Shown: in pieces, positions 8,086 through 35,272 of the stretch
Layout: each line of letters starts with the position of its first letter
How positions within the stretch are numbered: position 1 is the stretch's first letter
DNA from: Pohlia nutans
Taxonomy: Eukaryota > Streptophyta > Bryopsida > Bryales > Mniaceae
Length of the DNA: 64,000 nt
NCBI GenBank assembly: GCA_022496805.1
Contig: CM040094.1
Coordinates: forward strand, 19,739,501 to 19,803,500
Direction: 5' to 3'
Program-made: the position numbers and the translations under genes
Notes under the pieces: model-generated
Databases searched by the model: none
Told to the model about the DNA's origin: nothing
Seen by the model: the letters and a program-made list of their open reading frames with translations, nothing else

Positions 8086-8337
8086 AAAACTCAATACTTT
8101 GGAGAACCCCCTGGGCTGCTCGCGCACGCCGTCCGATGCCTGCGTCCGATGCCTGCCGTCCGCACTGCCGTCCGATCCGGCGTCCTCTGTGCCGTCCGAT
8201 CAGGCGTCCGCTTTGTTGTCCGATCCGAGGGTTTCGTCCGATGGATCCTGTCCGTCCGATCAGCGCGCTCCATTTCATTCAGTTCGTCCGATCTCGTCGT
8301 CTAAAACCGCTGTCCGAGGTGCTTCTGCAGATGGCCC
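8085..8337 (+). repeat. CGTCCG-motif module cut by a MITE
   Basis: The lead-in AAACTCAATACTTTGGAG and the next 40 bases (CTGGGCTGCT.GCGCACGCCG) are nearly the same as at 39139-39185, followed by about ten GTCCGAT/GTCCGCT motifs in the same orientation. The array stops 8 bp before a TTAA MITE (8338). It is therefore a truncated sibling of the intact promoter module at 39.1 kb; no TATA box or gene remains here. Confidence 0.75.
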
Positions 8338-9842: not shown

Positions 9843-10592
9843 ATATTATTCATCCAATCGCACATGTGTACACAATATATTTATATCGTGGATATGTAAA
9901 TCTATATAAACATAGAAATACACGAGCATAAATATATACATATACACATATGTATGTATGGATATATGTATGTATGTATATGTAAATATGTGGGTGGATA
10001 TTTGTATGTACATATACATGGAAGCACTTACGAATATACATGCACTACAAACATGTCTTCCATGATATTGCACCATCATGAAAATGGCATGCCACATGTG
10101 TTTTATATTACCAATTGGCATATATTATTATTCCAAGCTTACTAGAGATGATAATATGCCTTGCACGACGTTCTACCATCATGTATACTTGCATGCACAT
10201 ACGCACACACATACACGATAACTTATGGAATTCGAAGTGGAATTCATATTTTGAATATTTCGCTTCTTTATTCAATTGGTAAGTAATTACAAGTCAAGTC
10301 ATGAAATTGACCAAAAGTGGGAGGAAGAACGAACAAAGGAGGAAAGGGAGAAGGGCAAGGTGGGGGGGGGGGGAGTTAGCTAACAATGGAGAGGTAAGAG
10401 CCATCATGAAAGAGGTGGGACGGACCGCTTTCCTAGAAGTGAAGCACTACAAGAATTCAATGCGAAGCACAATAAATGTTGGAACATTCTTTGACCGTAC
10501 TCAAAATAGTCCTCGAAGTCCGCGAGGATTCTTGAAGTGCGTGTAGACCCAAGGAGTTGGGCTGGAGGAGGAAGAAGGGAGAGAAACACCAA
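9843..10592. repeat. Dispersed repeat block, copy B
   Basis: Second copy of the block at 7131-8085, shorter, with a 12-G run at 10362-10373. The last 230 bp are nearly identical in both copies, so the ORFs of about 80 residues found in both are a by-product of the duplication. Confidence 0.75.
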
Positions 10593-10815
10593 AAAACATC
10601 ATATTCATTAAAATGAGAGAAGGGGAACCTCTCAAAATAGTATTATGAGAATTCAAGTGGATGTATGGGAGTTTAGGGTTAATATAATTAGTAAATGGAA
10701 CTTGAAGTTTTCATTAAATTGAGAGTTTTATATAGAAGAAGACATTTTGATTGTCAAACTTTTGATTTTTGATTGCAAATCTCGTGTACAAGGTCTAAAT
10801 TATTCGTGTACCGGA

Positions 10816-14287: not shown

Positions 14288-14413
14288 CTGCTCAGGAAAT
14301 GAAAACATCAAATCGTTTCGAGTTGAAATGAGTAGAGTGTATCATATACGACGGACGAATATAAAATATTTTTCATATATTTATCAGCATGGGCTCCTGT
14401 GTGGGCAGAATCT

Positions 14414-15372
14414 TTTAACTCGAGCCGAGTTGATTCAACAGGGAAAAATTCCTTGATTAGTATATAGAATTGTTTAGTCGGCGTATGCCCTGTGTACAAT
14501 TAGTTCAACTCGAATCGAGTTGAATATACGCAGACACCGAAACAGAATGAAGTGAATATTATACGTTAAGTGATCTGATCAAAGTCCCCTGGCTAGACTC
14601 CAGACAGTTCAACTCGAGTCGAGTTGCACTGTACCCTGGTGTGACCAAGCAGTATACATTGTCAGGCAGTTCAACTTGACTCGAGTTAAACATCATGACC
14701 ATGTATACTGCCTGCTCAGTCCATCATACATTTCAACTCGAGTCGAGTTGATCTCAATCCTTGGATGAGCAGGCAGTTCAAATGTCCAGGAAGTTTAACT
14801 CGAGTCGAGTTGAACTGTACCCTGGTGTGACCACGCAGTATTCATGGTCAGGCAGTTCCACTCGGGTCGAGTTGAACTGAATGGCATGTAAACAACCTGG
14901 TCATGACAGTCCAGGCAGTTCAACTCGAATCGAGTTGAACTTCTTGACCATGTAAACTACCTGATCATTCCAGAATACAGTTCAACTCGAGTCGAGTTAA
15001 ACTTAATACTCGGATGAGCAGGCAGTTCAAATGGCCAGGAAGTTCAACTCGACTCGAGTTGAACTGTACCCTGGTGTGACCATGAAGATAGAAGGCCAGG
15101 CAGTTCAACTCGAGTCGAGTTGAACTGTACCCTGGTGTGACCATGTAGTATGCATGGTCAGGTAGTTCAACTCGAGTCGAGTTGAACTGCCTGGCCTTTT
15201 AATCTGTATGGTCACACCATGGTACAGTTCAACTCGACTCGAGTTGAACTTCCTGACCAATTAAACTGCATAGTCACACCAGGGTACAGTTCAACTCAAC
15301 TCGAGTTGAACTGCATGGCCTTCTATCTTCATGGTCACACCAGGGTACAGTTCAACTCGACTCGAGTTGAAC
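14414..15372. repeat. 62-bp satellite built on a 21-bp palindrome, inside the 5' intron of the minus-strand gene
   Basis: From 14608 to 15372, thirteen copies of the palindrome (TTCAACTCGA, one base, TCGAGTTGAA) start at 14608, 14670, 14732, 14794, 14856, 14919, 14981, 15043, 15104, 15166, 15228, 15290 and 15351, a 61-63 bp period. Two outliers are at 14414 and 14504. Spacers use a few words (CCCTGGTGTGACCATG, GGTCAGGCAG) that appear forward in the first two thirds and reverse-complemented after about 15185, making a larger inverted repeat. The centre base is G, C or A. The whole block fits inside a likely intron (donor at 15680, acceptor at 14288). Confidence 0.93.
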
Positions 15373-16028
15373 TACCTGTCAGTTTAATCGAGGTATATAT
15401 TGCTCAGAATTTTATTAGATGATAAATTTAACAGATGCACATAACATTCCCGGAATTTGCGGCGGAAAAAACGGGAAATGTGAAACTACAAACATTTAAC
15501 GCTATATAGAACCCTAAATCCCAATTTCTCAAATATTGAAACAAATATGTCTAAAACAGAAAATATGAAACACACATAATCCTAACCTCAGAGAGTATTG
15601 CAGCGTTGCATTTGATCGGATGCAGAACAATAACATGCATGAAATGAACAGATTGGAAAGCGTGTCGCACGAATTCATACCGGAAATTGGCGCAAACTAC
15701 CCCGAATGCGATGTACAACCTTCAAGTCATAAAGCGATGAACGCTGCCGCGGCGCAGTCTTGAACTTCTTCAGCAACAACTACCTAGTGATACTAACCTA
15801 ATACTGAGCTCTCACGATGCACGTACTGATCGCAAAACAATGCTACCGCAACGAAGTTCGGAGGCGCAAGCGCAAGGGCATGAGACCGAATGGAGAAAAG
15901 GTCGCTCCCGGTTACGCAGAGAGACTTATAGGCGATTTGGCGGGAGAATTGCAGCGGGAAGGGAATCCACCAGTTGAAATGGTCGATTTCAAATGTGCCG
16001 TTCGCTGCAAATGACGAGAACTCCGGTG

Positions 16029-16036
16029 CCTTTATA
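16029..16036 (-). promoter_or_regulatory. TATA box for the DUF7869-type gene
   Basis: TATAAAGG on the minus strand, followed by about 350 bp of mixed-composition leader and a GTATGA donor at 15680. Position and orientation fit the promoter of the minus-strand gene. The start site itself is not visible. Confidence 0.5.
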
Positions 16037-16844
16037 GTGAACGTGCCTATTATTAAGCCTTTATCTGACATGCGCAGGCGACTTTATCCTGTTGTTCTAC
16101 ACCATCGAGGTAGGTGGGAGTAATTGCCAAATTACTGAAGAAAAAGTTATTAAACGTGCAAAAATCAAAATACATTCAGAAGCGAAATGTTCCTCTGAAA
16201 CGGACGACAAATTATGTCTGTACTCATTCCATTCTATTGTGTTCAGGTATACCTAAAATGCCGAATAGGCCCAAAAAATAGTTCGTGTAGGGCATAAATT
16301 ATTCAATTCCAACTAATGCCTAGATGAAGGACGTTCGCTCTAAAATGCCACCCAAGCTTTTCAGATTTAATTCAAACTATTACAGCTATTTCTAACTTTT
16401 ACAATAGAGTAACCAGTACATATATTGTTTTAAAAACGATTTACCGCGTGTTGTACTTATAATGTTATTGCTTGTGCGACACACACACACAACTTAGCCT
16501 ATAAAAAGAGTTCTGTCGCATTTGAAAATATCTATCATATAAAGCTTGTCAACTCCAATATTCAATTGAATACACTGTAAAATATAACATAATAATTTGA
16601 ATGTTTGGTGTTATACTGTAGGTACGAGGGAGGAATTAATCATTTAGCTATGGCAAAAAATTGTGAATTTCTTTGTCATATTTTATTTATTAACTAAAAT
16701 ATTTTTAGTTTTCAATTATGCATTTAGAAGAAATATATGAATTCCTCAAATAAATATCATACTAACTTAAGAATATGAATTTCATAGACAAATACATTAA
16801 AAGTTTATTAATTTATTTTAAGTAAATGTATTGCATAAGAACCT

Positions 16845-17960
16845 TCATCTTCATGATTCGAAAATATTTAGGATGCATAATTCTTAAAAGAAATAAAATT
16901 TAGCAATGCCTGTACTTTAATGAACCTAATTACATAATTGACTGAGCGCTATTAATAGGAGTGTAAACGGAAAAAAAATCCCACAAGTTGAAAATACGTA
17001 TATTAGGTAAAATTCATGAAAATATTATATTTTTGCAAACGTATGTATGATTTTTAACTTCTCCTAAAAATAAAGTATGTTGCTTGCAATAATCTCATGC
17101 GTTGAATCATTTTAAAGATTCATTTATTGAGTGAAATTATGTTTACGATAAGAATTACCGCGTAAATTGTAAATATTTTACATAATTTTATTTTAGGAGA
17201 ACCTTCAAATGATTCAACGATTTTTAGGATGCATATTTATCGCAGAAAATTACAATATAGAGCTAACTGTATTTTAATGAACCTAATTACATAATTCACT
17301 AAGCGGTATAGGAGTTTAAAGGGAAAAAAAAGATCCCACAAGTTGAAAATACCTAGAATAATTAAAATTCATGAGAATATTATATTTTTGCTAAAGTATT
17401 TATGATTTATAGCTTTTCCAAAAAATAAAGTACAGTGTTTGCGATAATATTATGCGTTTAATTATTTTAAAGATTCATATATTGAGTGCAATTATGTTTA
17501 CGATAACAAGTAACGCAGAAGTTGTAAATGATTTACATAATTGTATTTTAGGAGAACCTTCAAATGATTCAAAGATTTTCAAGATGCATATTTATCGCAA
17601 AAAATTACAATAAAGCGCTAACTGTATTTTTATAAACCTAATTATATAATTGAATGAGCGCTATAGGAGTTTAAAGGGAAAAAATATCCCACAAGTTGAA
17701 AATACCTAGAATAATTAAAATTCATGAGAACATTAACTTTCTGCAAACGTATGTATGATTTATAAGTTTGACAAAAAATAAAGCACAGTGTTGACGATAA
17801 TCATAATTATGCGTTCACTTCTTTTAAAGGTTGTACTGAGAGCAATTTAGTTACCCTATGAAAAGAATTAAGTGAATTAACGGGTAATTTGTAAGTATTT
17901 TAACTAACTGTATTGAATGAAATCCTTGAAGTCATGCAAAAAAAATTTGGATGCATAAAT
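16845..17960. repeat. Diverged tandem satellite, period about 355 bp
   Basis: Four units recognisable by ...CCTTCAAATGATTC.A...GGATGCATA near 16845, 17206, 17556 and 17926 (spacing 361, 350, 370). Each also carries CCCACAAGTTGAAAATAC and a TTCATGA.AATATTA segment at matching offsets. Copies are perhaps 75-85 percent alike. Confidence 0.8.
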
Positions 17961-18654
17961 AACAATATATCATTTAAAGACATGAAATAACATTTCTTAT
18001 TGTGAAGCTTAAATTTGACCATGACTATCTCAACTGTTTACAAATACAATTGCAAATGAACAAAATATGAACAAAGTCCATTCACAGTCAAAAAAGATAA
18101 TGCATACTATTCTTATACAATTCAAACACTATCAAACTTCTCTAGAGTTAGGGAACTATACAAACTGTTGGTGAAGATGCTTTTACCAATAGAAACTTGT
18201 AGATGTCACTGACCGTAAGCTTCTTGAAAAAACAAGGAAGTTAATAATTCCCTGAACTTTTCTTCTCATGTGCTAATAATTTGGTTTCATTAGTTTTCCG
18301 CATTGATTTCTTGCAACAGTGTCTTGTGTACACTTATCATTTGTGGCAAATTTGACAGTGTCGATTCATAAATATTTTGTGAATCATGATGATATGTAGA
18401 ACAAGGATCTTTATTGTAATGTCAAATGAATAATAAAGGTACATAATCAAATAACTTTTACGTGCGTTGCATCTTACAAATTCTAAATTTTAATCAAGAA
18501 TTTTAACTTTGTCTCTTCTGTAACAACATGCGGTTTTAGCAAACTGCAGGATCATTATGCGCTTTGGCTCGAGGTGAAGCCTCTGCTTTGATGAGATGAC
18601 TTTGTTTTTTTTCGTGCAAATTGAACGTGAAAATCATTTGGACCTGATCTCGAT

Positions 18655-18905
18655 GATTGATGAGAGATCCCACCTTACAGATACACTTTAAATTCAAAAT
18701 TTACTATAAGAGAGAACAACAATGTATCGCCTTAAGTTTCAAGAACGAATACAAAGTCCCATAGTCTCTCTAACCATTGCTGAATCGGACTGATACATAT
18801 TTTAAACGTCGGGTATGAATGATGACCTTCACACTCCATAATTATCGATGATTGATATCGAAGTATAGCAAGTTCTCGAAGTTTTTATTCATGCATTCTA
18901 ATAAA
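18655..18905. repeat. Dispersed repeat pair, copy 1
   Basis: Shares GAGAGAACAACAATGTATCG, ..GGTATGAAT.ATGACCTTC.. and ATCGATGATTGATATCGAAG in the same order with 19967-20190. No protein or RNA family is recognised. Confidence 0.7.
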
Positions 18906-19966
18906 ACGTAATTACTACTTTTACGTCCCTCTATTTTCAACATAATTATAATTTGCTTTATTAAAATATTAAAATTTAGAATGCAGTAAAATACAGCTAG
19001 CACCTTAATTTAACGTAATGAAGCTTTATATTGCGAACAAACGCTTGCATCAATTTAAAAATCTCATGAAATTCAATAGTTCACATTCTTTGGAACTTGT
19101 AAGGTTTGGTATTAAAAGTCGTTCTATGTAGAGTTCTAATTAGATATAACTTGGTCTTCAAAAAAGTGCTAGTGTTTAAATTTAACTTTTAAAACAAAAT
19201 ATTCATTTTAAAATTCATTCGATGACGATAATTTTCTCTTGCATTTTACATAATCAATGTCTTTAGAAGTTGTACGTCACTTATTTTCAACATGTAATGT
19301 GCTTTATTAAAACATTCTAATTCTTTGAAAGCATTAAACTACAACATTAAACTACAGATTTATATAAATTATATAAACAGTGATATACATTTAAAAATTC
19401 CCTTGAATTTTAAACGTACTCATTATTTGCATCTTTTTGAAATCATGAAAATTTCTCATTACAATGAATATGGTAGATAACTCCATGAACTATGAATTGT
19501 TACAAGTAACTTTTTCATGCAAAATCTTTGAAGCATAGAGTCAATATTTAACCAGAAGCCTAAATATTGTCAATTTAATGTTTAATGTTAGTACTGTGAG
19601 TTATACTTTAATGTGACTACTGTCACTATTGTAATGTCATTATTGTAATGAACAGCGATTGGCTGTGGGCGATGGAAATGATTGGATGTGGGCGATGGAA
19701 ATGATTGGCTTCTGAAGGAACAATGCACTTATAGTTATGAATTAAGAGAAAATGCACATTCAATGGCTTATCGTAGTAGCCGCATTTGTGTAACTTCATG
19801 CAAATATTGAGACATTTTTTGTTTAATAAAAGTAGCATGCTTTCATTTCAATATAATTTTTTTTTTTTAAATTTAAATTATTATTATTTTTTTCACACGA
19901 ATCGCAGTGTTCAGCAATTGGGAATTAAAAGAGCTGGACTACTATTGCTGGAGTAGTTATCATATA

Positions 19967-20190
19967 AGTATCGATGATTGATATCATGGTATAAGAGAGA
20001 ACAACAATGTATCGTTTCTCTAGAACAAATGCGAAGTTACGAAGTCTCTTCAACCACTACCGAATCGAAATGATACAGATTTGGAACGTCCGGTATGAAT
20101 AATGACCTTCCCGCTCCATAAGTATCGATGATTGATATCGAAGTATGAATAGCACGTTCTCGAAGTTTTTGTCCATGCATTCTTATAAAA
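19967..20190. repeat. Dispersed repeat pair, copy 2
   Basis: Direct-orientation copy of 18655-18905. A further ATCGATGATTGAT word starts a partial copy near 20640. Confidence 0.7.
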
Positions 20191-22356
20191 CTTGATAGCA
20201 AAATCCGCAAAATAAAATAAAAACCCTGAAGTGCAGGATAATACAATCTATCTTACTATGCAATCATAAATCATTAAAATAATATGAAATTGACGATGCA
20301 ACACTTATCATGCAAGTAAAGGTTTTAAATATTTTCAAAGCAATTACAACATAATTATTCTATACTCGTTATGTTCAAAGGATTTCCAATTCATGAATTT
20401 ATTGACAATTTATCTCGAATTGAGCTACAGTGCACCCACTGAATGGGTACTTCAATTTTTGTCATTTATGTCTCCTTTGAGGTATATGATTAAGTTTAAA
20501 AATACATGTACTTGGTATACAATGAATATTAAGTCCCGCAAACTTAAAAATCTCTCAATTAACAAACTTCATGTTTTCTGCACAAATATAGGCTTAACCC
20601 TTAGTTGCAAGAATGTGCACGGGTTTCGTACTCGTTACAATCGATGATTGATGAGGTTATTGTATGATTGGAGAACGAGTTAAACTTCGATGCAAATTAT
20701 CGATATGGAGAGTGAAGGTGAGTCCACATTAATTATTTTCTAGACCAGTAGTAGTTTGATTCGATAGTGATTGGAGAGATAATTAGGTGTTCTACGTCAT
20801 TGCAAATTTTGAATTCGAAATGTTATTTAAGAGTGGGGGCTATGTGAACTAATAGGAAAAAAACGAAAGAATATTCGGATTGCACGAAACTTAAAATTCA
20901 TCTCATTCAAGCATAGGGTGAACACTGGTAATAGCGCTTCATTGTAAAGTATGTGGAAACCGCATCTTGACGATGCAGTGATAAATTTGAATTTCATGAT
21001 CATTACTTAAGGCTATATAAAATAAACTGCATATAAACCTTTAATTATTTTGATTATGGACCTATTGAACTTATGCACTGAATTTCTTAAATGACATAAC
21101 AATTAACAAAGTCTATTTTTGGTATATAAAGGAAAATGAAATATACTCTTTCTTAGTACATCGCCATGACTCACTAACTATTTAAGAATCTGCAATGTCA
21201 AATTTCACTGTCTAATGTCTAATGCATATTGTGTACTGTTTAATATCATATGACCATCGGGTAATGTCATAATGTCACCCTAATGTCCGATATGTCATGC
21301 TGTCTACTGTTTACTGTTTATACAATGAGCATAATTATGTCGGATAGGTATTTAGATAACAAACGCACTTGGTTAATTTAAACCCATTAAGATTAGAAAA
21401 TTTCAATATATTTTACTTCACAAACTCAGAGTTCCGATGTATAGTAAGATTGGTTTAATTTGGGCTGTTAAAAAAACTAACAAAAATATATATGGAATTA
21501 TTAAGAACTTCTAGAAAAACAATATAAAGGAAGTAAACGAATTGGTGAAATAAAAGAAGTAAATCTTAGCAATGAACGAAAACCGTGATCTAAAATGAAA
21601 TAAAACACTGTCGTTGGGTTTGTTTAAAAGCTATTATTAGCAGGATTTAAAATGCCTCGATTAAAAAGGTACATCGATACATTTATTACATGCAATTTAG
21701 TTTAGGTTCTAATATAATTTCATCGAGCGTTATAGTTTGAGTTTGTGTTATTATTTCTCTCAATTCTAATATTCCCTTCCTTCTTGTTAATTTAAACATA
21801 ATATTTGAGAAATTTATTTATTTCTTTGTTATTTTAATTATTAAATACAAATTTTTAATAAAATTCATTATGATTGGTCAAAATTATAAGTTTAATAAGA
21901 TGTTTAATTATTGATTAGAATTCATCTTCTTCTAAGTGATTAATTTAACTAGTTCTTGTCTATAATTGTTTAAATTGGTGTTTCTACACAATAAAATATC
22001 CTAAATCTTGACATCTTATACATATGTTATGAACATTATACTTTTGACCAATTTTACCCTAAAACTATTGAAAAACAAATTAAACTAAATTTTTTATGAA
22101 TATTCAAAAAAATTCTTTGTAAATTCATTTCTAAGAATTCTAAAGTGTTTTTGTGGAATTTAATTGTATAGATAGGATCTATACGTTGTGAATGACAACT
22201 TTCATGTTCTATGGAACTTCTAAACAGTCATGAAACACATATTTTATAGGTCATTTAATTTATGCCATAACCCTTCAGGAAGTTAAGGGATAAGTGCACA
22301 TCAATGTATATAGAAACGTATATAGAATTGTGTATTTTTAGACATGTATATGCTTG

Positions 22357-22580
<224 letters not shown>

Positions 22581-23826
22581 CATGTATGTACGTGTAGCGA
22601 TAAAATTTTCGAGGTCATTACGGTTTCTCGGTCATTTGAATTTAGCATTTTCAGTATATAACACTACATAATGTAGATTTTTTTTTTTACAGTTTCCTCT
22701 TGTGAAGTAAAAAAAAACTTGACTTGAACAAATCCTGTTACACATGTGGCAATAAAGAGAACCTTTTACTATGAATAATGATAGATTTATTTAGCCAATT
22801 ATCCATTAGAAATCTGAATGGATGAAACACTATAAAATTTCAAATTAAGATAATGGTTACAATTTTATGAAATGTTGACTCTTGCACATTGAGGACATTT
22901 GGTCTAAAAGAGGAAAAAAGAATCATGACGTTCAGAAATATTTTGTACTATATACATTTCACATCATTTTCTAATGTTTTCGTTATAGTAAATGAACATG
23001 ATGCATTTACTATGGATTAGTCTCCAATTGCACCGTTTTACTACCACAATTAGAAGAGTTCAAAAAATTATAAATATTAGTAAAGTTATACATTTTAAAC
23101 TTCGATCAACTCGAACACTGTCCATCACATAACTTAGAACCACTTATATGACATTCAAAATATTCTAACATACATGGTATTTACCTTGCTACCCAAGACA
23201 TACAATACATCTAGTACACTCTAGAATTTTTCTAGGCACTCCAAGGAAAAATGGATTGAATCATCTATACTACAAATGGTCATCCAACGAATTATCAATA
23301 TAAAGCACTTTCATCTGAGTACTGGCGTTCTTAGGTTTAGGGCAATGTCATCCACGTTTTTTTAAATTACAGTGCAGTGTTCTTTATGGTTTAGAGCCAA
23401 CATACTTAATTACACTCGAAAAAAATTAAATAAACCACTCACAAGTCTTGACACATGCATTGTATAATCATGATGTGCACTTAAGAGAATATCCAACATC
23501 ACTTTGCAATATGAATAGACACTGCAAAGGACAAAGTTTTTTCAACAATAATCCCACCAAGAAATAACTATTTCTCCTTGCATATTCATATTTATGTATT
23601 GTATTTGATGTCTCCCTTCAAATAAATTGTTGACCAATCCATACAACATCCATTCAATCGTGCAGATGCTCTCACATGTATGTAGTCAATCGATTTTACT
23701 GTCAAAACTATATTTCTCTTGGGATTAAAGTCAATTCTATGAGATTTCATTTTGTAGCTTAGATATTAGCGTTATTTTTAAAACAAACACTACAATCTAC
23801 ACTACAAATCTACAACATGCTTTTAA

Positions 23827-23980
23827 CCCTTTAACAAGATACTAAACTTGCTCAAAGGATACTAAACTTGCTCAAGAACCAAGAGTAATTTTTGTAGATG
23901 AAAACTGTCAAATCTGGATGAGATTCGAACAAGTTGAAACTATTCGTCGTCCAATATATGGACGATAGCGCGGTAAAGGG
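23827..23980. mobile_element. Small TTAA-type MITE
   Basis: TTAA then CCCTTTAAC at the left, GGTAAAGGG then CTAA at the right, 154 bp. The near-terminal GTCCAATATATGGAC palindrome next to GCGCGG resembles the left end of the element at 46412. The right target site has one mismatch, so the call is tentative. Confidence 0.4.
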
Positions 23981-24013
23981 CTAATCTAGGAAACTAGTTT
24001 TGTTTCCGGGCAG

Positions 24014-24286
24014 CTATACCGTAACACCATAGCCGATTCGCCACCTAGCGAACGAATATTTATTATTTTTGAAAAAATAAGGTTCGCCTCTCGAAAACTG
24101 AATTTCTCAATTTTCGTTTTTTAGCAAAGAATCAGTAAAAATTACCTTAAATAGCTTAGAAATAACAAAATATTGCAAAAACTAAATTATTTTATTTTCG
24201 TTTTCTTGTCTTCAGAATTCTGTAATTTTTCCGTTTTTGATTTTTAGATTTATTTTACGACGAACCTGCTATGGTACTACGGTATC
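24014..24286. repeat. Possible MITE with imperfect terminal inverted repeats
   Basis: ATACCGTAACACCATAGC at the left faces GCTATGGTACTACGGTAT at the right (16 of 18 positions complementary). No clear target duplication. It sits just upstream of the GC-richer leader region. Confidence 0.4.
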
Positions 24287-24389
24287 CTTTTGGGTACCCC
24301 GGGCATCTTAGCCACTGCCCGAGAATTTCGGGCAGCCCGGAGATATTGGGCAGCCCAGAAAAAAAATCGGGCAGCCAAAAAAAAATCGG

Positions 24390-24919
24390 GCACTGCCCGA
24401 GCTGCTCCTCTCTCCCAGCGTTAGGGTTTGGAGCCCCGTCTCTCCTCATTTTCTTTTCTCTTTCTATTTGCTTCTGCTCTCCTGGCTGTCTGCATTTCTC
24501 CACGCGCGACCTCTACCTCCTGCTCTATTTCTCCACGCTTGTCTTCTGTTTCCTTCGCTCTTCGTCTTCTATCACTCGTTCTAGCCCTTGGAGTGTTGAA
24601 CTGGAGTGTCAAGCTTTAGGGTTTGAAGTGTAGGTTGGGTGGCTGTCCCCATTTCTCCACACTCGCGTTGTCTCCATTTCTCCACGCGCGCTGTCTCCAT
24701 TTCTCCACGCCCTTCTACTTTCTCCACGTGCGACCTCTACTTTCTCCACGCTTGAACTGGAGTGTCAAGCTTAGGGTTTGAAGTGTAGGTTGGGTGGCTA
24801 GATTTGTGTTGCGGTTGTGTGATTAGGGTTTAGAATCAGAAATTGTGGAGCTCGATTGACAATGCGCCAGTACCGGAGTGCTGTGCGAGCTTGAAGGTTC
24901 AAGAGCAGCATTTCATCAG
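24390..24919 (+). other. Putative promoter/leader exon of the ParB-methyltransferase gene
   Basis: A sudden rise in GC with CT-rich tracts (repeated TTTCTCCACGCGCG words), typical of a plant 5' leader, then ...TTTCATCAG followed by GTAAAAAC, a good donor at 24920. A 50-bp segment (AACTGGAGTGTCAAGC..AGGGTTTGAAGTG) is duplicated at 24596 and 24755. The next good acceptor that leads to an ORF is at 27410. This mirrors the layout of the minus-strand unit at 16.03-14.29 kb. Linkage to the downstream gene is inference. Confidence 0.4.
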
Positions 24920-26215
24920 GTAAAAACTCGTCTTCATGCACTTCATTTTCTTGTATGCGGTTTTGTTCTTAGTTTAGGATGTAAACCATACTGGGTAGGG
25001 CTCAGCGGGTGTTGATTTGATCACCCTGCCAGCACCTTCTGAGATATTTTTTTTTTCGGTTTCGTGGAGAGTGTGGCCAGATGGGATTCATTTGATCTCC
25101 TGGACACTGGCAGGGGTCCATTACGCGGTTTAGTGTGTAGTTGAAAACCCTAAACTGAAATTCTGAGGTCTTCTTTGCATGCAGGGGTGTGGTACATGCC
25201 TGTTCTTAGTTGATTGAGTGATTTCTCTGGTTAAACGGTTAAACCAAATCTTCAGTTTTCCGAGGTCATTCTTGATTCTGGAGTTGGTGTTGCATGGCCA
25301 TTTTCAGTGGGGTCAATGTCGTTGGTGGTTGAATTGTTTATCTGTGGGGGAATATGGTTGCAAGGCTGATTCCTAGTTGTTGCAGGGGTTTGTCTGTTTG
25401 ATTATGACCTCAGGCACTAGCTAGTTATGGGAAGCAATTAGGGTTCTAATTGAATCAGTGATTGAATTGTATGCTAGGTTGCTTCAAATTGCTGCAATGC
25501 ACGTATGCTGTGGAGAAATGGGGATAGATCATTGCAATTGGGTGAAAATTGAATGAAATTTAAGTTGAAACTTGAATAAACTTAAATGAACTGGAATGAA
25601 ACTTCAATGAAATTGAATGAATGAAATTTCTGTACATTGAATGAAATTGCTGTAGATTGCTTCAATGAAATGGCTGGAATTGCATAAATGTTGTTGTGGT
25701 TGAATGCCTGATTTTCCAATCTTGCATATATAGTTTACACGTTATGTTCCATGACAAGCAAGATGTTTTTTTCCTTTCTTTCAGACTAATCGATTTGGCA
25801 ATCATCTTCCCTGCTTCCACTGCATTGAGAATCGCAATTCAGAAAATTCAGGTTTGTACAACGCTCATCACTTTGAATTCTGGCAGTTTATTTGTCCACA
25901 TAGCTAATTTGTCCACTTTGAATTCTGTTATTGAGGTCCATGTGTTTTCATACCTTATTTAAAAAAAATTCGCAGAAGTTTGTAAAAATCGTCATAGTAG
26001 TTTTCGCTTTCATTTGCAGAAGTAGTGATGGAAGTTGAGAATGTATTCAATTCCATGTTAGGGTTTTGGTTTCTTGCATCGTTCTCATTCTTTTAAGTGC
26101 ACTCTATTTCAAATTGGAAACACCACAGATTTCATTGAATGTAGAATTTTTCTTTGTGGCTGCTGAAATGAATTCACGTATACGAAATCGTATACAACAG
26201 TTTATCTCGATGTTA
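24920..26215. other. Presumed first intron, proximal part
   Basis: AT-rich; includes a TGAATGAAAT-like low-complexity stretch near 25540-25680. No protein family is recognised. Confidence 0.35.
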
Positions 26216-26219
26216 TTTC

Positions 26220-27362
26220 AAGTCGACGTCAATTCAAGTCGACAACCCTTGAAATTGCGAACCAACACACCAAATAATAGGTCGAGTCGAGTTGAATTAC
26301 ACAGCCAATATATAGCCAGATGGCAATTCAACTCGACTCGACTTGAAAATATGGACAAACCACATGAAATTCAACTCGAGTCGAGTTGAGTTGCACGACC
26401 ATAATCTGAAGGCGCATGCAAATCAACTCGACTCGACTTGAATTATATCCAGTAGCCAGGTAACAAATACCTTACAAGATAATTATATGAATATAATTCA
26501 ACTCGAATCGAGTTGAATCTCAAAAATAATTAAAACGCCCATTAAAATCAACTCGAGTCGAGTTGGATTACCACACTAGCCAGGTCATAAATACCTGAAA
26601 AGCTACTGAACTACATACCATTCAACTCGAATCGAGTTGGATTGCGAAACAAAACGAAAACTCCCATGCAATTCAACTCGACTCGAGTTGAATTGCATAC
26701 AGAAAACCCCGTAGTTATGTTAGGATCACATTAATACTACAATATAATAATTACAATTCAACTCGAGTCGAGTTGAATTGCAAAACATACAACACAGGCC
26801 GATGCAATTCAACTCGACTCGAGTTAAATTATATACATCCAACCCCGCAGTAATGTTAGTACATAATGCACACTACTGTGATAGTTACAATTCAACTCGA
26901 CTCGAGTTGAAAACAGAACATACACCTCAGGCCCATGTATTCAACTCGACTCGAGTTGAATTGCATATAAAAACCCCGTAGCTATGTTAGCACATCATCA
27001 AAGCTACAAAATAGCTCTAACTCAACTCGAGTCGAGTTGAAAACAAAAAATACACCACATGACTTTGTATTCAACTCGACTCGAGTTGAATTGCAAATAC
27101 AAAACCCCGTACTATTTAGAATGAAATAAATACTACTGTAATAATAACAATTCAACTCGAGTTGAGTTGAACTACAAAACATACATCTCATGCCCATGCA
27201 ATTCAACTCGACTCGAGTTGAATTGCATACCCTAAAACCCGTACGTATGTTAGCATTACATGAAGACTACTATAAAAAATACAATTCAAATCGAGCAAAA
27301 GACATCGATAAAGACATCGCACCTATTCAAACCAGACATTTCAACTCGAGTCGAGTTAAACA
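26220..27362. repeat. Dimeric palindrome array (50/82 bp alternation)
   Basis: About 19 copies of the 21-bp palindrome. Taking the CAACTCGA word as reference, starts are 26499, 26549, 26623, 26674, 26759, 26810, 26893, 26942, 27023, 27072, 27153, 27204, 27287 and 27342, so spacing alternates about 50 and about 82 bp, a 132-bp dimer. Longer spacers share AACCCCGTAG.TATGTTAG. The array ends 50 bp before the ATG at 27413 and lies in the presumed first intron. Confidence 0.9.
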
Positions 27363-27412
27363 CGTTTTGTCTGAATTGCTAAGCCAAGCTATACGCGCTT
27401 CTGAATGCAGAT

Positions 27413-30400
27413 ATGGATAGTCAGGATTTCTCGATGGACACCGATAACCAGGAAGCCAAGCTGAACGTCTTCTACGAGAAGTACATCACACCAGAAGTTG
27501 GTGGCGATGAGTTTGGCGACTCAGTAACATATGGTGATCTCTGGAAGTATCAAGATCCCGACAGCGTAGAGTATTGGAGCATTGTATTGATCCCAAATGG
27601 AAGTAAACTGGCCGTAACGACAAAGCACAAGAATGGACAAGTAGAGCTATCCGTGTCTCTATACGAGCAAATAGAGGATATTAATCCGGGGCCACCAGGA
27701 TACGTGTACATCACATGCATCACAATGGATCCGGGCACAGAAGAGTACCGCTTCACGTACATGATGGAGCCAGCAAAAACCCCATTTTCGATTTCAGCTC
27801 ATTTAAGCAGCCTCGTCAACAACGACTACGAGAAGCTGATAAAAGACGTCGAGGCGCACGTTGACAAGAACATCTACACCACAGAGTCCGGCGAGCAACA
27901 CCCAGCCAATATCCTCGCACCCCGACTGAGAAAATTGCTGCACGGGTTTGAGCTGTTCAAGATGATGATGGAAGTGTCAAAACAATCCATGCAGCCCTTG
28001 AGCCTGAGGAAGGAAATGAGTAGTCAGGGTGCCAGTCAGGAGTCACGACTTTATGAGACTCCAGACACGAGGAAGAGTGGAAACAAAAGAAGAAAAATTA
28101 CTCCATCGACGTCTTCGAGACAGAGGGGCGCAACAGGAAGCAGGGTTAAACAAACCAGGAAGTCGCTCTTATCTGATGCAGTGGAGCCTAACACACAGGA
28201 GAACATCAGTATGGAATCCGCACTGACAGACATTCCTCGTGACTTTGACAGCGAGAAACATGATTATAAAAACTCGTGTGAAGTTTACGAGAGGTACTGG
28301 GCCGAGTGTACAAGCTCGTACCTAGGGGGAGTAGAGACGTCATACCCTATTTCCATAGACCAGCTCGAGACCCCACCAGCAGACCTCAACGTCAGGAGCC
28401 TCAAAGATAAGATGGTTGAGGTAATCATGTACTACCTGGTCGAAATGCCCCACAAGGACAAGAAGCTTACGTTGTGCGCCATGCCCAAGAACTTAACGGA
28501 GATGCCCAAGTGCTGGGAAGACATACAGAATGGCCAATTCTGGATGATAAACGGGCAGCATAGCGTAGAGGCCTCCAAGCGCATGAGGGGTAGGCCGGGT
28601 ATAACTAAGAAGGTCCTAAAGAAGTTCGAAACTTGGGACTGTTTTATTGTCTGGAACGCTGACCACTCCATAATCCGAAAAATATCAGCTTTCTACAATC
28701 GAGTCAACCACTTCCAGCAGTTCAAGCCAACTTGGGCAACAAACATTATAGGAGCCCAGGAAGTTTGGAAGACCCTTAACTCTCCAAAGCCGCTGAAGGA
28801 GGAGACGGAGGTTGGGAAGTCCGTCACTGTGCGGAGAACAAAGATGCAGCTGGAGAATGCACAGAAGTACAAGGTAACCAGATGATTCAACTCGATTTGA
28901 GTTAAATCACATACACTGACCTAAGTTCAGCGCCGTTCAACTCGATTCGAGTTGATTCATTAAGAAAGCATTATCTCTCAGTTCCAATGCACTGATGACA
29001 ATATGAGTGTGCATGCTAGTTCAACTCGATTCGAGTTAATTGTATTCACTAACATGTTTGCATTCGAACAATGCAGGAGTTCGAGGACGCGGTGAAGCTC
29101 CGCTTTGGGATGATTGATGTCAAGAAGACCCAGAAAGCATTGAGCGCAAAGAATATCAAGGAGCAAGACGTTGATATTCACAATGAGATCAAGATCATCA
29201 CCGCCGCAGACGATGTCTACAATCTGTGGAGCGAGCTCATCGCCAGTCACTCGCAAGGCTTGCTCATCGATCCAGAGTCCGGGCTGGCGTTTAAAGAATT
29301 GAAGTCCTGGAATGCCGAGAGGGATGGTGTCATTTCTCGCGAATTCTTCAAGTGGTTAGGGAACCTCTCTGAGGCACAGTTGAAGAGGCTCGCAGAGCAT
29401 TTGCTTAACAAACCCGATCCTAAGAGAGAGGAGCCATATCCGAAGGTGACAATGAAGAAGGTCGCCGGGGTTGTTGCAAATTGTTATAGCGCCAAGGATT
29501 GGCTCGAGAGATGCAAGCAAAAAATGATCATCAAGAGGCAGATCCACTTGCTAGAACCCAATCTCGGTCTCTACAGCTCCAGTGGAGAGTTCAAGAAGGA
29601 CAGGTGGAAGGACTTCAAGACTAAATACAGGATTTCAAAAGCCGCCCTCAATGTCCTGTTAACCGCCCCAGGAGAGGATTACTACACCGCAGCGAAGCTA
29701 CCCCGCAACAAGAACAGGAGTACTGGGACTCTCTCACCGTACGCGGAGGAATTCTTCAAAGTCTTTCTCAAAAACAAGGGGAAGTTCGTTGTCCCCACGG
29801 GAAAGGCCAACTATCGGCCATACAATTTGGACAACGATATTCTCGCGTCGTGGAGTTCATCCGCGTGGAATGAGAGAACAGCGGAGCGGATTACACTTGG
29901 CATAATGGACTTCAGGAATCTGCCTGGGGCGGCGGAGCAAGATCCATCATCGACAGATGCTCCATACTTCTACAATATCCTCTCTGTATTGGGCGGGATT
30001 GATGATCCTTGTCTCACTGAAGTTCCAGTGTGGGTCTGGATCTGTGGAGATATAGAAGCACACGCTGTCATAGTGAATCATTTTCTTCACTCCGACTTTG
30101 CGAAGAAGTACAACATGAAACACGCGGATTACATGCCGGCAAAATACAAATGCCTGGAGGATGTACCAGCGAATAGTAAGCGGGCGCATATGAAAATGCA
30201 AATTCTTTACCTGTTTAAGAAGGGGATTAGGAGGACAGGAAAGACATACATGCCCGTTTTCGAGCCCCCTGAAACCACGGTGTTCACGACGCCAGGTGCA
30301 TACAATGAGCTGGACTACCGCATCTACAACACCGAAATGCGGATGGAGTTCTACATCAAATTGCTGGAACTCTTCTGTAAGAACGGTGATGCAATTCTCA

Positions 30401-31711
30401 CGGTTTTCGGGGGAGGCGAGCTCACATGCGCTGCATGGGTAACAACATGACGCATACCATTTAACTCGATTCGACTTGAATTTCATTTGTTTATGTTAGC
30501 AGAACATGTTAATCTGTAACGTTTAGATAATTTGTAAAACTCTGTGTCCACCACTTTCGTTGATTGGTCATCGTAGCATTGTGTGCCATTCAACTCGAGT
30601 CGAGTTGATTCAAAAGCAGAGTATGCTTGACCATTCAACTCGACTCGAGTTAAATGATCAGCGTGCCGTTGTGTAGCATTTCACTCTTCTGACAGTTGTT
30701 CCACCCATGCTGCAGATGTGTTCACTGGAGAACTACATCATCGGAGACAACACACAAGTCGATGACTTCATTCGTCTTTCTAAGATAGCAAAGAACTTAG
30801 ACAAGACTGATTTCATTGATGTTGGATACATTGTTGATGAGACGATGTATCCAAAGCCCGGGCATAAGGAGGGGCAGTCGTCTCAAAGAGTGACGAGAGC
30901 ACGCTCCGCGTCCGTCACACAGCAGGGGATGGAACACCCCCAGGTAGTTAAAATTTCTGATAGCAACGATGATACTGATGACGACGCGGATGACGAGGAC
31001 TTCAATCCACATTTGACTCAGACGCCAAGGACTAGGCACGACTCCAGTGCGCTGCCAATTCCTAGCGATAATACACGTGAGACATCCGAAACCTCGTTCC
31101 CAGAAAAGTCTCCCATTTCCTCTCGCGGTAAGAGAAAAATGAAAGAGGAGAGCAAGACAGATTTGGCTTCGAAACTCTTCTCTGATTTGTCAGAGAGAAT
31201 GCTCGAGCTCGAGGAGCAGCAGACCAAGCGTTTCCTTGAGGCCAGAGAGAGAGATCGAGAAGAGCGGGAGCGCGAGCGAGAGGAGCGGGAACGCGAGAGG
31301 GAGCGGGATCGTGTGCGGGATCGGAAGGAGTTCGAGATGCGGATGGAGCTCATGTTTGAGAAGATTCCCGCCATGGTGAGAACATGTGTAGAAGTCAGCG
31401 GTGGTGGGCCTAGGCACTTGGCGATGATCGATCCAGCACAGGGTCAGGCTGGGAATCTACTCCTCACCAATCGGGCAGAGAACTCTTCCGGTAGTGGAGC
31501 AGCAGTTCGTCCTTCCGGTTCAGGCTCAGCTACTCGCGAGGCATCCCTTGAGACCCCAGCTCCTCGATCAACTGCAGATCAAACGCAGCCTGCGATGGCC
31601 GGAGAAGTGCATCAGTCAAAGCCTGCATCCCCGTCCACATCTGCAGACGAGAGTCGACAGGAAGGATTGGGAGCGGATGCGTCGGATGTGCCACCAGGTT
31701 CATCCCCATGA
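27413..31711 (+). CDS. ParB-like domain plus beta-class DNA-methyltransferase-like protein (three exons)
   Basis: Exons 27413-28873, 29077-30438 and 30716-31711 join in phase 0 with GTAAC donors and GCAG acceptors, giving about 1272 residues. Near residues 365-455 a ParB/sulfiredoxin-like fold is suggested by FWMINGQHSVEASKR and ISAFYNRVN. Near residue 780, TDAPYF followed by VWVWICGD looks like a degenerate DPPY catalytic motif. Near residue 929, GDAILTVFGGGELTCAAW continues over the intron into MCSLENYIIGDN, matching the FxGxG cofactor (AdoMet) motif. Order catalytic-then-cofactor is that of beta-class N4/N6 methylases. An acidic stretch and a long Glu/Arg coiled coil (about residues 1100-1145) follow, ending in a Ser/Pro-rich tail. 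ParB-methylase pairing is common in phages and bacteria; here it is in an intron-bearing eukaryotic gene. DAPY instead of DPPY may reduce activity. Both introns carry three copies of the 21-bp palindrome. Confidence 0.7.
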
Positions 31712-31894
31712 TTCTTCTTTTTTGATTTAACTCGACCCGAGCTGAATTGTTGTCGCAGTATGACGAAGTATTTCACAATAGGGATTCTGGCTGTTTTTCT
31801 AGTAGTGTAGTCTTAGCATAGACATACACTTTAACGACTTTTATTCTATACATTTTTGTAAATGTGAAATACTCTATTATTGATAGTGAAATAC
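31712..31894 (+). promoter_or_regulatory. Short intergenic/3' UTR with one palindrome copy
   Basis: Holds a diverged palindrome (TTTAACTCGA C CCGAGCTGAA, about 31726-31746) just after the stop codon at 31711. No TATA box is evident before the next ORF, so the downstream gene may be spliced from a shared transcript. Confidence 0.4.
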
Positions 31895-33223
31895 ATGATT
31901 GCCTTCTTACCGGATATTATCTTTGCACTTTCGCAACGCGCAGGCTTTGCCAATGTCCTCGAAATCAATTGCGCACATACGTCTGTTGCCGCATCTCCGG
32001 AGCATTTGATTAGTCGACATAGGTTTTCTGGGTCTCGTGAAATCCAAGAACCAGAGGTAGAACATCATCGTGTAGAAGTTACTTCTGCACTGGAATCTAG
32101 TGATTGTGACGTTATTCCTATGGACGTGACGACTGAATCTGATATTCCTGACGCTGTTCTCCTGGAGGTCCACATCCCACTTCCGACCACCGTCGTCGAC
32201 CAGGATCCCCCATCACAGTTGGTATCTTCAGACATGCCTGTAAGTCTTGCCTCTGTTGTCCCCACTTGCCATGAATTGGATCATTGATTGTGGGTCCGAG
32301 AATTGTTTTCTTTTGCATTCTTTGCCATTCTCAGATGGCTTGACGGTGGTAGAAAAATAAAACGGTGCAGTCCTTAACTGTCTGCACATTCTGTCTGTCC
32401 CCTTTCTTAACAGGGGGCTAGTGTAGCGCACAGTCCAGTAGGTGCTGCTCAGGAGCGTGTCAATCATTCGTTCGTACCCAGGGGGGTCCGCAGGTGGCTG
32501 AATGTCATCCTGGACCTCAATGGAATTCTTTGTGTTTGTTTGGAACGGAGAAACATGTCGAAGCACCAAGTGTACAATGATATCTCTCAGCCGCATTCGT
32601 CCGTCCTTTCGGTGGTGGTTGGTCCTAAGGCTGTGTACGTACGGCCGCATTGCAGGGAATTTCTCTACGAGTTAGAGCTTTTTGCATATGTCTCCATTTG
32701 GAGCTCCATGGCTGCTCCCACTACTAAGTTGATTACCGAGTACCTGTTCCGGGGTCTCCAACCCCCGTTGCATATCTTTGGCCAGGATACCTGCGATGTT
32801 ATCAAGTGTCGTGGCTCTCGCGGGAAAATGTCTAACTTCAAGGTCAAAGGAACTAATAAGGACTTGTTCTTAAAACCTTTGGACAAACTATTTGAACCCC
32901 AAAATTCAAAATTCTCTTGTTCAAACACCATCATTGTAGACGATAGCCGGGAGAAGCATATTCTCAATGAACCTGAGAATGTCGTACTCCCTGTTTCGTG
33001 GTCCAGATTTGAGGAGAGGGATAGGTTTTTAGTGGACGACCTTCTCCCTTGGATTCAGCGGCTTCACCGATGCCGGGGTCAAGGTTTGCTGTCGTTCCGT
33101 AGGAATGATAACATTGGACGTCGGATGCTAATTGAAGAGCCCGATACACGAGAATACGATGAGCTCATCGTTGCCATTGAAACTTCAAAGGCTATAATGC
33201 TGGAACAGTCAAGTTGTCGCTGA
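31895..33223 (+). CDS. FCP1/NLI-interacting-factor-like HAD phosphatase
   Basis: Exons 31895-32239 and 32414-33223 (GTAAGT donor, AACAG acceptor, phase 0) give about 384 residues. After an acidic N-terminus, NVILDLNGILCV is motif I of the haloacid-dehalogenase fold (normally DxDxT/V), VYVRPHCREFLYEL and AYVSIWSSM resemble the following FCP1-homology segments, KPLDKLFE holds the motif III Lys, and TIIVDDSREKH is motif IV with its paired Asp. Such enzymes usually remove phosphate from Ser in RNA polymerase II tails. The second motif I Asp is Asn here, which may change catalysis. The gene lies downstream of the ParB-methyltransferase gene on the same strand. The start ATG is uncertain because no clear promoter separates the two. 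Confidence 0.72.
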
Positions 33224-33378
33224 CTTGTAAATTTACTAATGAATGTGTGTGCCTACGATGTAATTGTTCCACTGTAACATCAGTTCTCCATTCAACTCGA
33301 CTCGAGTTGATTTATATGAACTGTATACTCCACACCTACGAATGTTGATGACTCCCTCTAAACTCTATTCGTATCCAG

Positions 33379-34250
33379 GTTTTGCGTGCCGTTTCGGATA
33401 CGGACAGTGATTTAGATTTTCGTTGCGCTGCTTCAACTGATTTGATTTTGGACTACGGACAATACGCGATTTCGCAGAGTGGCTTAGGGCATATTATGTA
33501 TTCGGCAGCTACCGCGCAGTCGACAATGGACTTCTCAAACAAGCCGTTTGCCCATGGAGTTGTGGATAGTCCACCCAAGGGTGTTATGAGAACGCGTCCA
33601 GTTAGTTCGCCGTCACCACTAAAAGCTCAAGCCATTGCATCTTCGCCGCGGAACCGCAATTCATGTGAGGAAGTGGCTCCAAGAAAGCTCTACGATGACA
33701 ATGGACTCGCGGCAACGGGTGAGAAGGTCCCTGAAACTACAGTGTCCCAGAGAATGCTTTCTGAAGACGCCTCATGTCCAGTTAATTCTCTACAGGTGCG
33801 AATACCTTCTTTTCCCGCACATGTATTTCTCATCGTCGGACATGCCTTACGGTATACTTATAGTTGTTCTTGTTCATGCAGCTTTTCGACATGCCAAATA
33901 GAAGCAAGTCCGTTGGTACTTTAAATGCTGCCCGATTGACCCCTCCGAACCCACCTCTTGTAATCCAAGCCCGTGTTGATGTGCCTCCTCGTGCACCCTT
34001 GCGTGCTCGTCAGCGTCCACTGAAAGAGGGTATCCAAGAGACTCGGTCACATGACGGATTTTTCAGAAAGAGATCCCCTCCTGTTCGAGATGCGTGGGAG
34101 GAACGGATGTTGGCGCAACAAAGACGTGAGATCTCCCTACAACGATGTTCGATATATACTGGCTATACTCGTGGTCCTCAAATGTTGAAGGCTGCAGCTG
34201 AACGTAAGTTGACGGAAGTAGCTGGACTGAAGACTCGATCGCATTCATGA
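33379..34250 (+). CDS. Unknown protein, two exons, start missing
   Basis: Exons 33379-33795 and 33882-34250, joined by an 86-bp phase-0 intron (CTACAG donor side GTGCGA, acceptor CATGCAG). The first exon begins at an acceptor (TATCCAG), so at least one exon lies upstream. No phase-compatible donor was found at the end of the phosphatase ORF, so it may be a separate gene or a downstream exon set in an alternative transcript. The protein is Ser/Pro- and Arg-rich with no recognised domain; the end (RDAWEERMLAQQRREIS...MLKAAAERKLTEVAGLK) is probably helical. The gap before it holds one copy of the 21-bp palindrome (near 33292-33312). Confidence 0.5.
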
Positions 34251-35272
34251 TACCATTTGGCATTGTATTTGCGATTACTATACAGTGGTAGTATCCTGTA
34301 GTGATGTACAGAACCGTAGTTTAGTTGTGTATCTTGTACCTAAATGCTATTTGACTGTAGCTCCTTGTAATGATAAGCAGCAATTTCTTCACCAATTGTC
34401 TGTTGCTCTATGCAATTTCTATAAATAGACATATATTACGTTACATTTCAATGGCAAGTGTCTCAATTCTCTTGCAAAGTAATATTTTCACTCAATTTGT
34501 GTTGCATATTCAAATCAATTTCATTGATATTCTGACACATCTAAACTCTCATTTTCAGAGTATACTCTCATTTTAATTGTCAAACCTCGTTTATTCAAAA
34601 ACGGGCAGTTAGGGTTTGTAGGGCAGTAAAAGGTAACCCCATCCGCCATAAATGGGAGAAATGGCGTTCCTAGTGACCTCTTTATTTATTTGGAGAGAGT
34701 GGTGCTCTCACGCGCGTCTTAAGTTTTTATTACGGAATCTGGGAATGGCGGCGGACCGGACAGGAGACCGGATGGGAAACCGGGGGTCGGGGAACAGGCC
34801 TCTGCCGGGCCCGGCCACGATCCGGGAATTGAACTGGGCCGCCTTAAACTGGGCGGCTCAGTGTTCATTCCTTCCCGGTTCCTCCAGCCCTCCGTGCGCA
34901 CCCATTTTTGCACCCCCGGAGAGCGCTAGGGTTCCCATTTCGCACCCGAAGAGAAAGAGCAGTGAGCGGCCGGTGTGTGAGGATTTAGAGCACCCGAGAG
35001 TGAGGGAAATTGAGCGCCCGGGGAGAAACAGTAGCGCAAGGTTAGAATTTGGGAGAGGCGAGCACCCGGACAGCGAGAGCCGCCATTTCCGGCGGAATTT
35101 ACGGAGAGGAGTAGGTGCGCAGCCGGGAAGAGAGGCGCGGTGACTCCGGGAGGTCAGGCGCACGCTACGGAGGCGAAAAGGGAAGCGTCCGAAGCGCGAG
35201 GAGAGCAGTTTGCCGGAGAAGGAGCTACGCCATTCTCAGAGGAGTACGGAAGCGCGTCCGGAGTCTACAGCC
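34251..35272 (+). other. 3' flank, then GC-rich leader of the gag-like gene
   Basis: Up to about 34600 the DNA is AT-rich and unremarkable. From about 34740 GC jumps and CCGG words are frequent. The ORF at 34652-35143 is proline/arginine-rich, resembles no family, and is more likely the leader of the next gene. Confidence 0.45.

Follow-up and report, generated by a model that had tools for sequence, protein, structure and literature searches.

A conserved 21-bp palindrome in non-coding parts of a moss DNA transposon as a candidate recognition site for an element-encoded protein

Introduction

In the moss Pohlia nutans we analysed a DNA transposon in which a 21-bp palindrome is repeated many times, located in a stretch of 64,000 bp (assembly GCA_022496805.1, contig CM040094.1, positions 19,739,501 to 19,803,500; this whole stretch is called the window in the following). 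The element carries two divergent genes, one encoding a protein with a ParB-like motif and a methyltransferase-like region (the ParB-like gene), the other a DUF7869 protein. The closest described architecture is that of Sola1-1_Ec32 from Ectocarpus, a giant DNA transposon of 21.5 kb whose opposite-strand gene encodes a protein of 1104 amino acids that combines a ParB-like with a DNA methyltransferase domain, and in the accessible part of the article its authors suggest that this protein binds and modifies the element (PMC12477816). The likeness to the moss element, that of a giant transposon with a ParB-like/methyltransferase gene on the opposite strand, is one of description and not of compared sequences. 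The same part of the article mentions neither a palindrome network nor an FCP1 domain, whereas the moss element has both (PMC12477816). Furthermore the methyltransferase of Sola1-1_Ec32 is described there as predicted N4C or N6A, whereas the moss protein is without a DPPY-type motif.

The closest functional model is provided by the VANDAL transposons of Arabidopsis, which belong to the MULE group and thereby to a group other than that of the moss element. As far as the available text of the two articles goes, their VANC protein attaches to short motifs within non-coding tandem repeats and brings about a loss of silent marks (PMC5735166, PMC10398659). Both cases combine an accessory system encoded by the element with a short motif repeated in non-coding parts, and in both the motif forms tandem arrays, which in VANDALs expand and contract. 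The moss motif is likewise confined to non-coding parts. Unlike the palindrome, the VANC motifs comprise only 8–9 bases and differ between related families, and the proteins are likened by description. Since the moss motif does not differ between related elements, we propose that the moss system would work like VANC, not that it is VANC.

Two more systems share single traits with this locus. The sites of TnpA in the maize element Spm are subterminal repeats, unlike the moss arrays, which are located kilobases from the element ends. According to the available part of one source, TnpA activates Spm in correlation with demethylation, and MURA of maize MuDR hypomethylates the terminal inverted repeats (TIRs) of nonautonomous copies (PMC10398659). 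Bacterial ParB-parS resembles the moss locus in its clustered palindromic sites and in the ParB-like motif of the candidate binder. parS itself is a different sequence of 16 bp, what we take to be the usual arginine after the GQH-type motif is missing in the moss protein, and we know of no transposon for which a partition role has been described. No published report of the palindrome was found in searches covering ParB in moss, algal and giant transposons, Sola in moss and sex-chromosome transposons of Ceratodon, with the subscription literature mostly uncovered. We regard the palindrome network as the new part; a Sola1 element with a ParB-methyltransferase gene on the opposite strand has already been published, judging from the accessible part of the source.

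Location of the palindrome in the window and in the genome

The palindrome TTCAACTCGANTCGAGTTGAA, a symmetric 10+1+10 site of 21 bp, was found 40 times in the window with up to three mismatches. Dinucleotide shuffling gave an expectation of 0.02 matches, and none of 100 shuffled sequences reached 40. All 40 sites are located between positions 14307 and 33311 and none elsewhere in the window. When up to seven mismatches were allowed, the matches beyond this interval carried six or seven. Array 1 (14307–15371) comprises 16 sites, mostly at a spacing of 62 bp, in an apparent leader intron of the DUF7869 gene; array 2 (26327–27360), again with 16 sites, occupies an apparent leader intron of the ParB-like gene. 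Between the two divergent genes lies an AT-rich spacer of about 11 kb (15372–26326) without palindromes. Both arrays look like leader introns because each is located upstream of an apparent 3' splice site near the start codon. Three sites each are found in intron 1 (28874–29076, plus strand, GT...AG; sites at 28886, 28936 and 29020) and intron 2 (30439–30715, plus strand; sites at 30460, 30589 and 30634) of the ParB-like gene. A single site follows the stop codon of exon 3 (31726–31746) and the last one (33291–33311) follows the FCP1 region and precedes the exon at about 33379; both recur at the same place in a further copy of the element, copy F. Because related proteins run on into a fused FCP1 domain and copy F has its site at the same place, the site at 31726 is probably located within a third intron that precedes the FCP1 exons. 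Unless such an intron is spliced out, a stop lies between exon 3 and the FCP1 region in the window.

Next to the window we considered six further copies, A to F, so that the co-occurrence of palindrome, TIRs and genes was judged in seven copies. None of 143 sites with up to four mismatches in the window and in copies A, C and D overlaps a coding stretch matched by tblastn, such stretches making up 30–38% of each element. The computed probability of 10^-24.6 for this exclusion overstates its significance, because the sites of an array are not independent.

A search of the genome (698 Mb, 332 contigs) yielded 856 exact palindromes, in comparison to 0 for the reversed control pattern. In prokaryote and viral contig collections the exact palindrome was found zero times. 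Copies A to E are the regions around the first 50 exact palindromes listed, which form five groups on a single contig (C1; the window is located on contig C10). All 50 of these listed matches, out of the 856, lie inside TIR-bounded copies. Each TIR-bounded copy counted contains 26–44 sites with up to four mismatches, and the arrays are located 3.0–11.8 kb away from the TIRs, the largest value including a nested insertion. At about 11 exact sites per copy, a value derived from 68 such sites in copies A to E together with the window, the 856 sites suggest an estimated 75 or so elements in the genome. In copy F we counted 11 sites, all between or upstream of exon matches and distributed over the same five gene positions. 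Three sites next to copy E, which had been candidates for sites outside any element, were ruled out as such: they belong to copy F, a partial copy that has a right TIR and a ParB-like gene of its own. For one weak site with four mismatches beside copy D (22966 in the coordinates of D) no element was seen around it in the stretch examined.

Ends, target duplications and gene order of the element

The locus is one mobile TIR DNA transposon, a conclusion that we regard as practically certain. The whole element extends from 10595 to 39140 and has TIRs at both ends; about 24.0 kb belong to the transposon itself and about 4.5 kb to a nested insertion. The left TIR, AACATCATATTCATTAAAATGAGAG (10595–10619, plus strand), is identical at 25 of 25 positions to the TIRs of copies A, B, D and E. 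The right TIR, on the minus strand, is split by the nested insertion into an inner part, CTCTCATTTTAAT (34565–34577), and an outer part ending GATGTT (39124–39140). The insertion itself (34578–39123) has TG...CA ends and a 5-bp duplication, TTAAT; long terminal repeats were not found in it by self-BLAST, and it overlaps an open reading frame of 922 amino acids.

The window copy is flanked by the target duplication AAAA (10591–10594 and 39141–39144). In copies A to E AACATCATATTCATTAAAATGAGAG is present at both ends, exactly or with one mismatch, and the 4-bp target duplications are, in this order, ACAT, TTTC, AATT, TTCT and TAGT. TIRs together with a 4-bp target duplication were thus found in 6 of the 7 copies examined, which are all 6 with both ends. 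The seventh, copy F just past E, has a right TIR with one mismatch; its left TIR was not found in the stretch examined. The gene order is the same in the window as in copies A, C and D: DUF7869 gene, array, spacer of several kb, second array, ParB-like gene and FCP1/NIF region. Two end exons close it in the window, A and D, the three of these copies in which the end was compared. The DUF7869 parts of these four copies are about 92% alike. The target duplication of Sola1 elements is 4 bp. On the basis of this length, the opposite-strand accessory gene and the literature the element is probably of the Sola1 type, an assignment made by these features and not by comparison with the Sola1 transposase sequence itself. 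A review table, as far as it was available, lists Sola1 for Physcomitrella (PMC9033089).

The original prediction, made from the sequence of the window alone, had reported about 45 palindromes confined to 14.4–33.3 kb and absent from coding exons, and had assigned the genes around them to one mobile or selfish unit. Confinement and absence from matched coding sequence were confirmed, the latter in four copies, and the number is corrected to 40 at up to three mismatches. The mobile unit is firmly supported by the shared TIRs, the 4-bp duplications and the gene order, and proved to be larger than the region covered by palindromes.

Conservation of the palindrome in comparison to the surrounding DNA

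We compared intron 1 between the window, A and C (intron 1 of D was left out) and intron 2 between the window, A, C and D. Between the window and A, palindromes were identical at 48/53 positions in intron 1 and at 54/62 in intron 2, the rest of the introns at only 43/109 and 76/187. This corresponds to 87–91% identity for the palindromes and about 40% for the surrounding intron. The other comparisons of intron 1 gave 34/42 for the palindromes versus 33/84 for the rest (window and C) and 35/42 versus 50/84 (A and C). For intron 2 the values were 36/41 versus 57/123 (window and C), 50/56 versus 90/165 (A and C), 50/62 versus 62/171 (A and D) and 36/48 versus 63/125 (C and D). The arrays showed the same tendency: palindromes and flanks had diverged by 7.9 versus 15.1% between A and C and by 14.8 versus 33.4% between D and the window, and in the second array of the window and D by 24.4 versus 31.6%, all three differences being significant. 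Overall the palindrome is better conserved than its surroundings in most comparisons. In addition the copies differ in their commonest array period: A and C have 34 bp, B and E 54 bp, D and the window 62 bp. Because the period varies in this way although the DUF7869 parts of A, C, D and the window are so similar, it is the 21-bp unit that is kept.

Palindromes in copies without a ParB-like gene and in diverged relatives

Of the coding parts, copies B and E contain only broken DUF7869 pieces and the first end exon; a ParB-like gene was not detected in either of them. Inside the element B has 44 and E 26 palindromes (up to four mismatches), and both have exact TIRs and intact target duplications. 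Because sites, TIRs and duplications are kept without the ParB-like gene, these copies suggest that the palindrome would act in cis and be served in trans. Both B and E contain a large inverted repeat, the arms of which, including the arrays, differ by only 0.1–0.4% within one element; their TIR does not differ from the one in the other copies. From these near-identical arms it follows that duplication, and not selection alone, adds to the number of sites.

Protein predictions made on unspliced contigs may run beyond exon ends into introns. From 63 relatives of the ParB-like protein (P0138–P0200) we obtained 34 such tails of at least 5 residues beyond the exon end reached; two tails from the spliced model P0148 were excluded. 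In 18 of the 32 others the core of the palindrome, CTCGANTCGAG, is encoded in one of the three frames, and several of these 18 encode nearly the whole palindrome. When all 34 tails were shuffled in 2000 trials, 1.6 tails on average and at most 5 contained the core, and the exon bodies, used for comparison, contained 6 core matches in 64 bodies (27,322 residues). The tails do not represent independent events. Since the relatives with usable tails are only 28–72% identical to the exons of the window, the palindrome has outlived much protein change.

Proteins encoded by the element

Three exons of the ParB-like gene were located on the plus strand. Exon 1 (27413–28873) encodes an N-terminal domain and the NGQH ParB-like motif, exon 2 (29077–30438) a degenerate beta-class methyltransferase-like region, and exon 3 (30716–31711, to the first stop) low-complexity, charged repeats. 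They are followed on the same strand by a region of the NIF/FCP1-type phosphatases (32411–33223; PF03031, E 2.2e-13, 50.7 bits at a cut-off of 21.8) with a DLNG variant motif, and by two further conserved exons (33379–34250), which tblastn recovered in A, D and F and the first of them also in B and E. A profile search yielded 64 relatives of the ParB-like protein at E values up to 1. The relatives of the element's proteins that have a named source belong to two mosses, Ceratodon purpureus and Physcomitrium patens, and to two bins labelled cyanobacteria. The latter, P0160 and P0182 (uncultured cyanobacteria AVDCRST_MAG81 and AVDCRST_MAG94), look like plant DNA in metagenome bins. The Ceratodon relative P0004 represents a cluster of 139 member sequences. 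VG or UG occurs in the locus tags of several relatives and presumably denotes the V and U sex chromosomes, which would suggest an amplification on these chromosomes. The ParB-like gene of copy F is 51–73% identical to that of the window over the main exons.

The NGQH motif is present in 16 of the 17 longer relatives. No match to a ParB-family profile was found in the ParB-like protein; one member showed a weak match (E 0.06) over the NGQH motif to DUF6551, which is presumably ParB-like. Exon 2 weakly resembles the C-terminal part of beta-class DNA methyltransferases. The catalytic motif IV, [DNS]PP[YFW], is absent in all 26 exon-2 sequences and in all 17 longer relatives, some gene models of which skip parts, and PF01555 (N6_N4_Mtase) matched a single one of the 26 members (P0158, residues 358–436, E 0.029) with 14.7 bits, below the cut-off of 26.7. 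FCP1/NIF was matched in 13/17 relatives (E up to 10, best 4.5e-15), which contain DLD[EG]T in 0/17 and the DLNG variant in 8/17 cases. Searches of PDB sequences and of PHROGs gave nothing significant, and an AlphaFold model of the ParB-like protein had a mean pLDDT (predicted local distance difference test) of 38 and was not used.

The DUF7869 gene is located on the minus strand (11436–14140; PF25273, E 1.3e-41), and its frame is broken near 13020–13067. The frame changes at the same place in copies A, C and D. An intron across the break was considered and dropped: enumeration of the splice joins gave none that was convincing, and homologs read straight through. We found 312 relatives at E 1e-5 or better, 120 of them listed. 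The protein is a probable DDE transposase, as judged from invariant acidic residues in a moderate model and from middling structural matches, the alignment rows from VIA-align being likewise middling; Foldseek gave no match at E ≤0.001 in PDB or BFVD, and no paper naming DUF7869 was found in the literature searched. The consecutive locus tags KC19_3G000200 and KC19_3G000300 in Ceratodon belong to the best relative of the ParB-like protein and to a close relative of the DUF7869 protein, so that the pair seems to travel together in this moss as well.

A candidate DNA recognition site and its possible binders

To distinguish recognition of DNA from that of RNA we oriented 148 sites from A, C, D and the window by transcription. 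Among the changes in them, 47 are wobble-compatible and 61 belong to the mirror type; 149 one-sided changes break pairing, and pairs are compensated in 4 cases. By side, wobble-compatible and mirror changes number 17 versus 12 in the DUF7869 array and 30 versus 49 on the ParB side. Since an RNA stem would favour the wobble-compatible class overall, yet the mirror type is more frequent, we interpret the palindrome as a double-stranded DNA site whose partner is symmetric, in the simplest case a protein dimer. With high confidence we regard the palindrome as a candidate protein-binding site at the DNA level. The original prediction had proposed that it is bound or modified by one of the element's own proteins, with a ParB-methyltransferase among the candidates. 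Binding is plausible and agrees with the symmetry, the conservation, copies B and E and the tails. Modification by the ParB-like protein appears less likely, because motif IV is absent and the PF01555 match is below the cut-off. The methyltransferase label of this protein is weak.

The predicted binder is the ParB-like protein, a prediction to which we give about an even chance. As a dimer, the ParB-like/methyltransferase-like/FCP1 protein would bind palindromes in leader and internal introns, and this would oppose host silencing or license transcription and mobilisation. Every copy carrying sites would benefit, including copies without own genes. An anti-silencing effect is proposed more tentatively. 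The proposal combines the functional model of VANC with the architecture of Sola1-1_Ec32, and in it the role of the FCP1 region, the binder and the effect are inferred. Taken as a whole, a cis-acting recognition site for an element protein, probably the ParB-like one, that serves anti-silencing or licensing is a reading that we hold with evenly divided confidence. A more specific version, which we think unlikely, is a parS-like transposon system for sequence-specific anti-silencing that would have an origin separate from that of VANC and would have retained a single recognition site in diverged elements. Here a ParB-like protein that has lost methyltransferase catalysis would load at palindrome clusters as a dimeric clamp and spread along the element, the FCP1-type domain would act on RNA polymerase II or silencing factors, and every palindrome-bearing copy would be marked as self.

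Several observations weigh against a recognition site of this kind. The contrast in intron 2 is small between the window and D (palindromes 55/63, rest 152/193); between B and E palindromes and flanks diverge by 5.7 and 7.5% (p 0.31), and no significant advantage of palindromes over flanks was seen within B or within E either. All 11 sites of copy F carry 2–4 mismatches. The core of the motif is the same in the diverged copies B, E and F and in the 18/32 tails, whereas VANC motifs diverge fast. A Pfam DNA-binding domain was not found in the ParB-like protein, and from the site alone one cannot tell whether the binder is this protein, DUF7869 or a host factor. Finally, CpG observed/expected is 0.46–1.06 in array DNA outside palindromes. 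As this DNA is not CpG-rich, there is no sign of long-term hypomethylation, and a hypomethylation footprint of the arrays, without clear CpG excess, is unsupported.

The palindrome could instead be bound by the DUF7869 protein and help to assemble the transposition complex, like subterminal repeats elsewhere. The probable transposase nature of this protein, the position of array 1 at its end of the element and the sites kept in copies without a detectable ParB-like gene would fit, but arrays so far from the TIRs do not adjoin the ends as such repeats would, and sites are also located within the internal introns of the ParB-like gene; we consider this binder unlikely. Sites in apparent leader and internal introns would equally suit a host transcription or insulator factor exploited for transposon expression, and strong conservation fits a conserved host factor. 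With all 50 exact sites among the matches listed (of 856) inside the element, such a factor is also unlikely.

Recognition as an intronic RNA hairpin, in splicing, as small RNA or for protein binding, is suggested by the clusters in apparent introns, by a sequence that could fold back and by the slight excess of wobble-compatible changes on the DUF7869 side, but the oriented mutation spectrum as a whole, with its predominance of mirror-type and pairing-breaking changes, leads us to reject it as the main explanation and to rate it very improbable. Neutral tandem repeats spread by slippage would account for the regular spacing, for the near-identical arms of B and of E and for the lack of extra conservation between B and E. 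They do not account for a 21-bp unit that is kept while period and spacer differ, for dispersed sites in short introns that are conserved when the intron is not, or for the core in the tails of diverged relatives. A neutral satellite was rejected on intron conservation and the kept unit, although B and E alone show no difference, and we give it next to no weight.

For giant algal transposons, ParB-methyltransferase proteins have been proposed to bind and modify their own DNA, and the accessible text does not name a target site. If the palindrome is a recognition site for an element protein, the moss element offers an explicit candidate target, a single palindrome with 856 exact genomic copies, and related proteins in Physcomitrium and Ceratodon. 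The general proposal thereby becomes directly testable by electrophoretic mobility shift assay, DNA affinity purification sequencing or bisulfite sequencing. If true, it may represent a second, independent class of transposon anti-silencing.

Other features of the window

The sequence CCGTCCGA occurs 32 times on the plus strand of the window and once on the minus strand (13973). Clusters on the plus strand are located at 5534–5625, 8129–8252, 39185–39493, 43889–44066 and 47056–47455, often with a spacing of 12–24 bp. All plus-strand sites lie outside the transposon, one cluster just beyond its right end, and the sequence is absent from the regions of copies A–E examined. The clusters are possibly the signature of another repeat family. 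To the left of the transposon we found a Tc1/mariner-type transposase (3955–4941; DDE_3, PF13358, E 3e-15). The AT-rich spacer contains a 355-bp tandem repeat in 2.5 copies (16910–17790).

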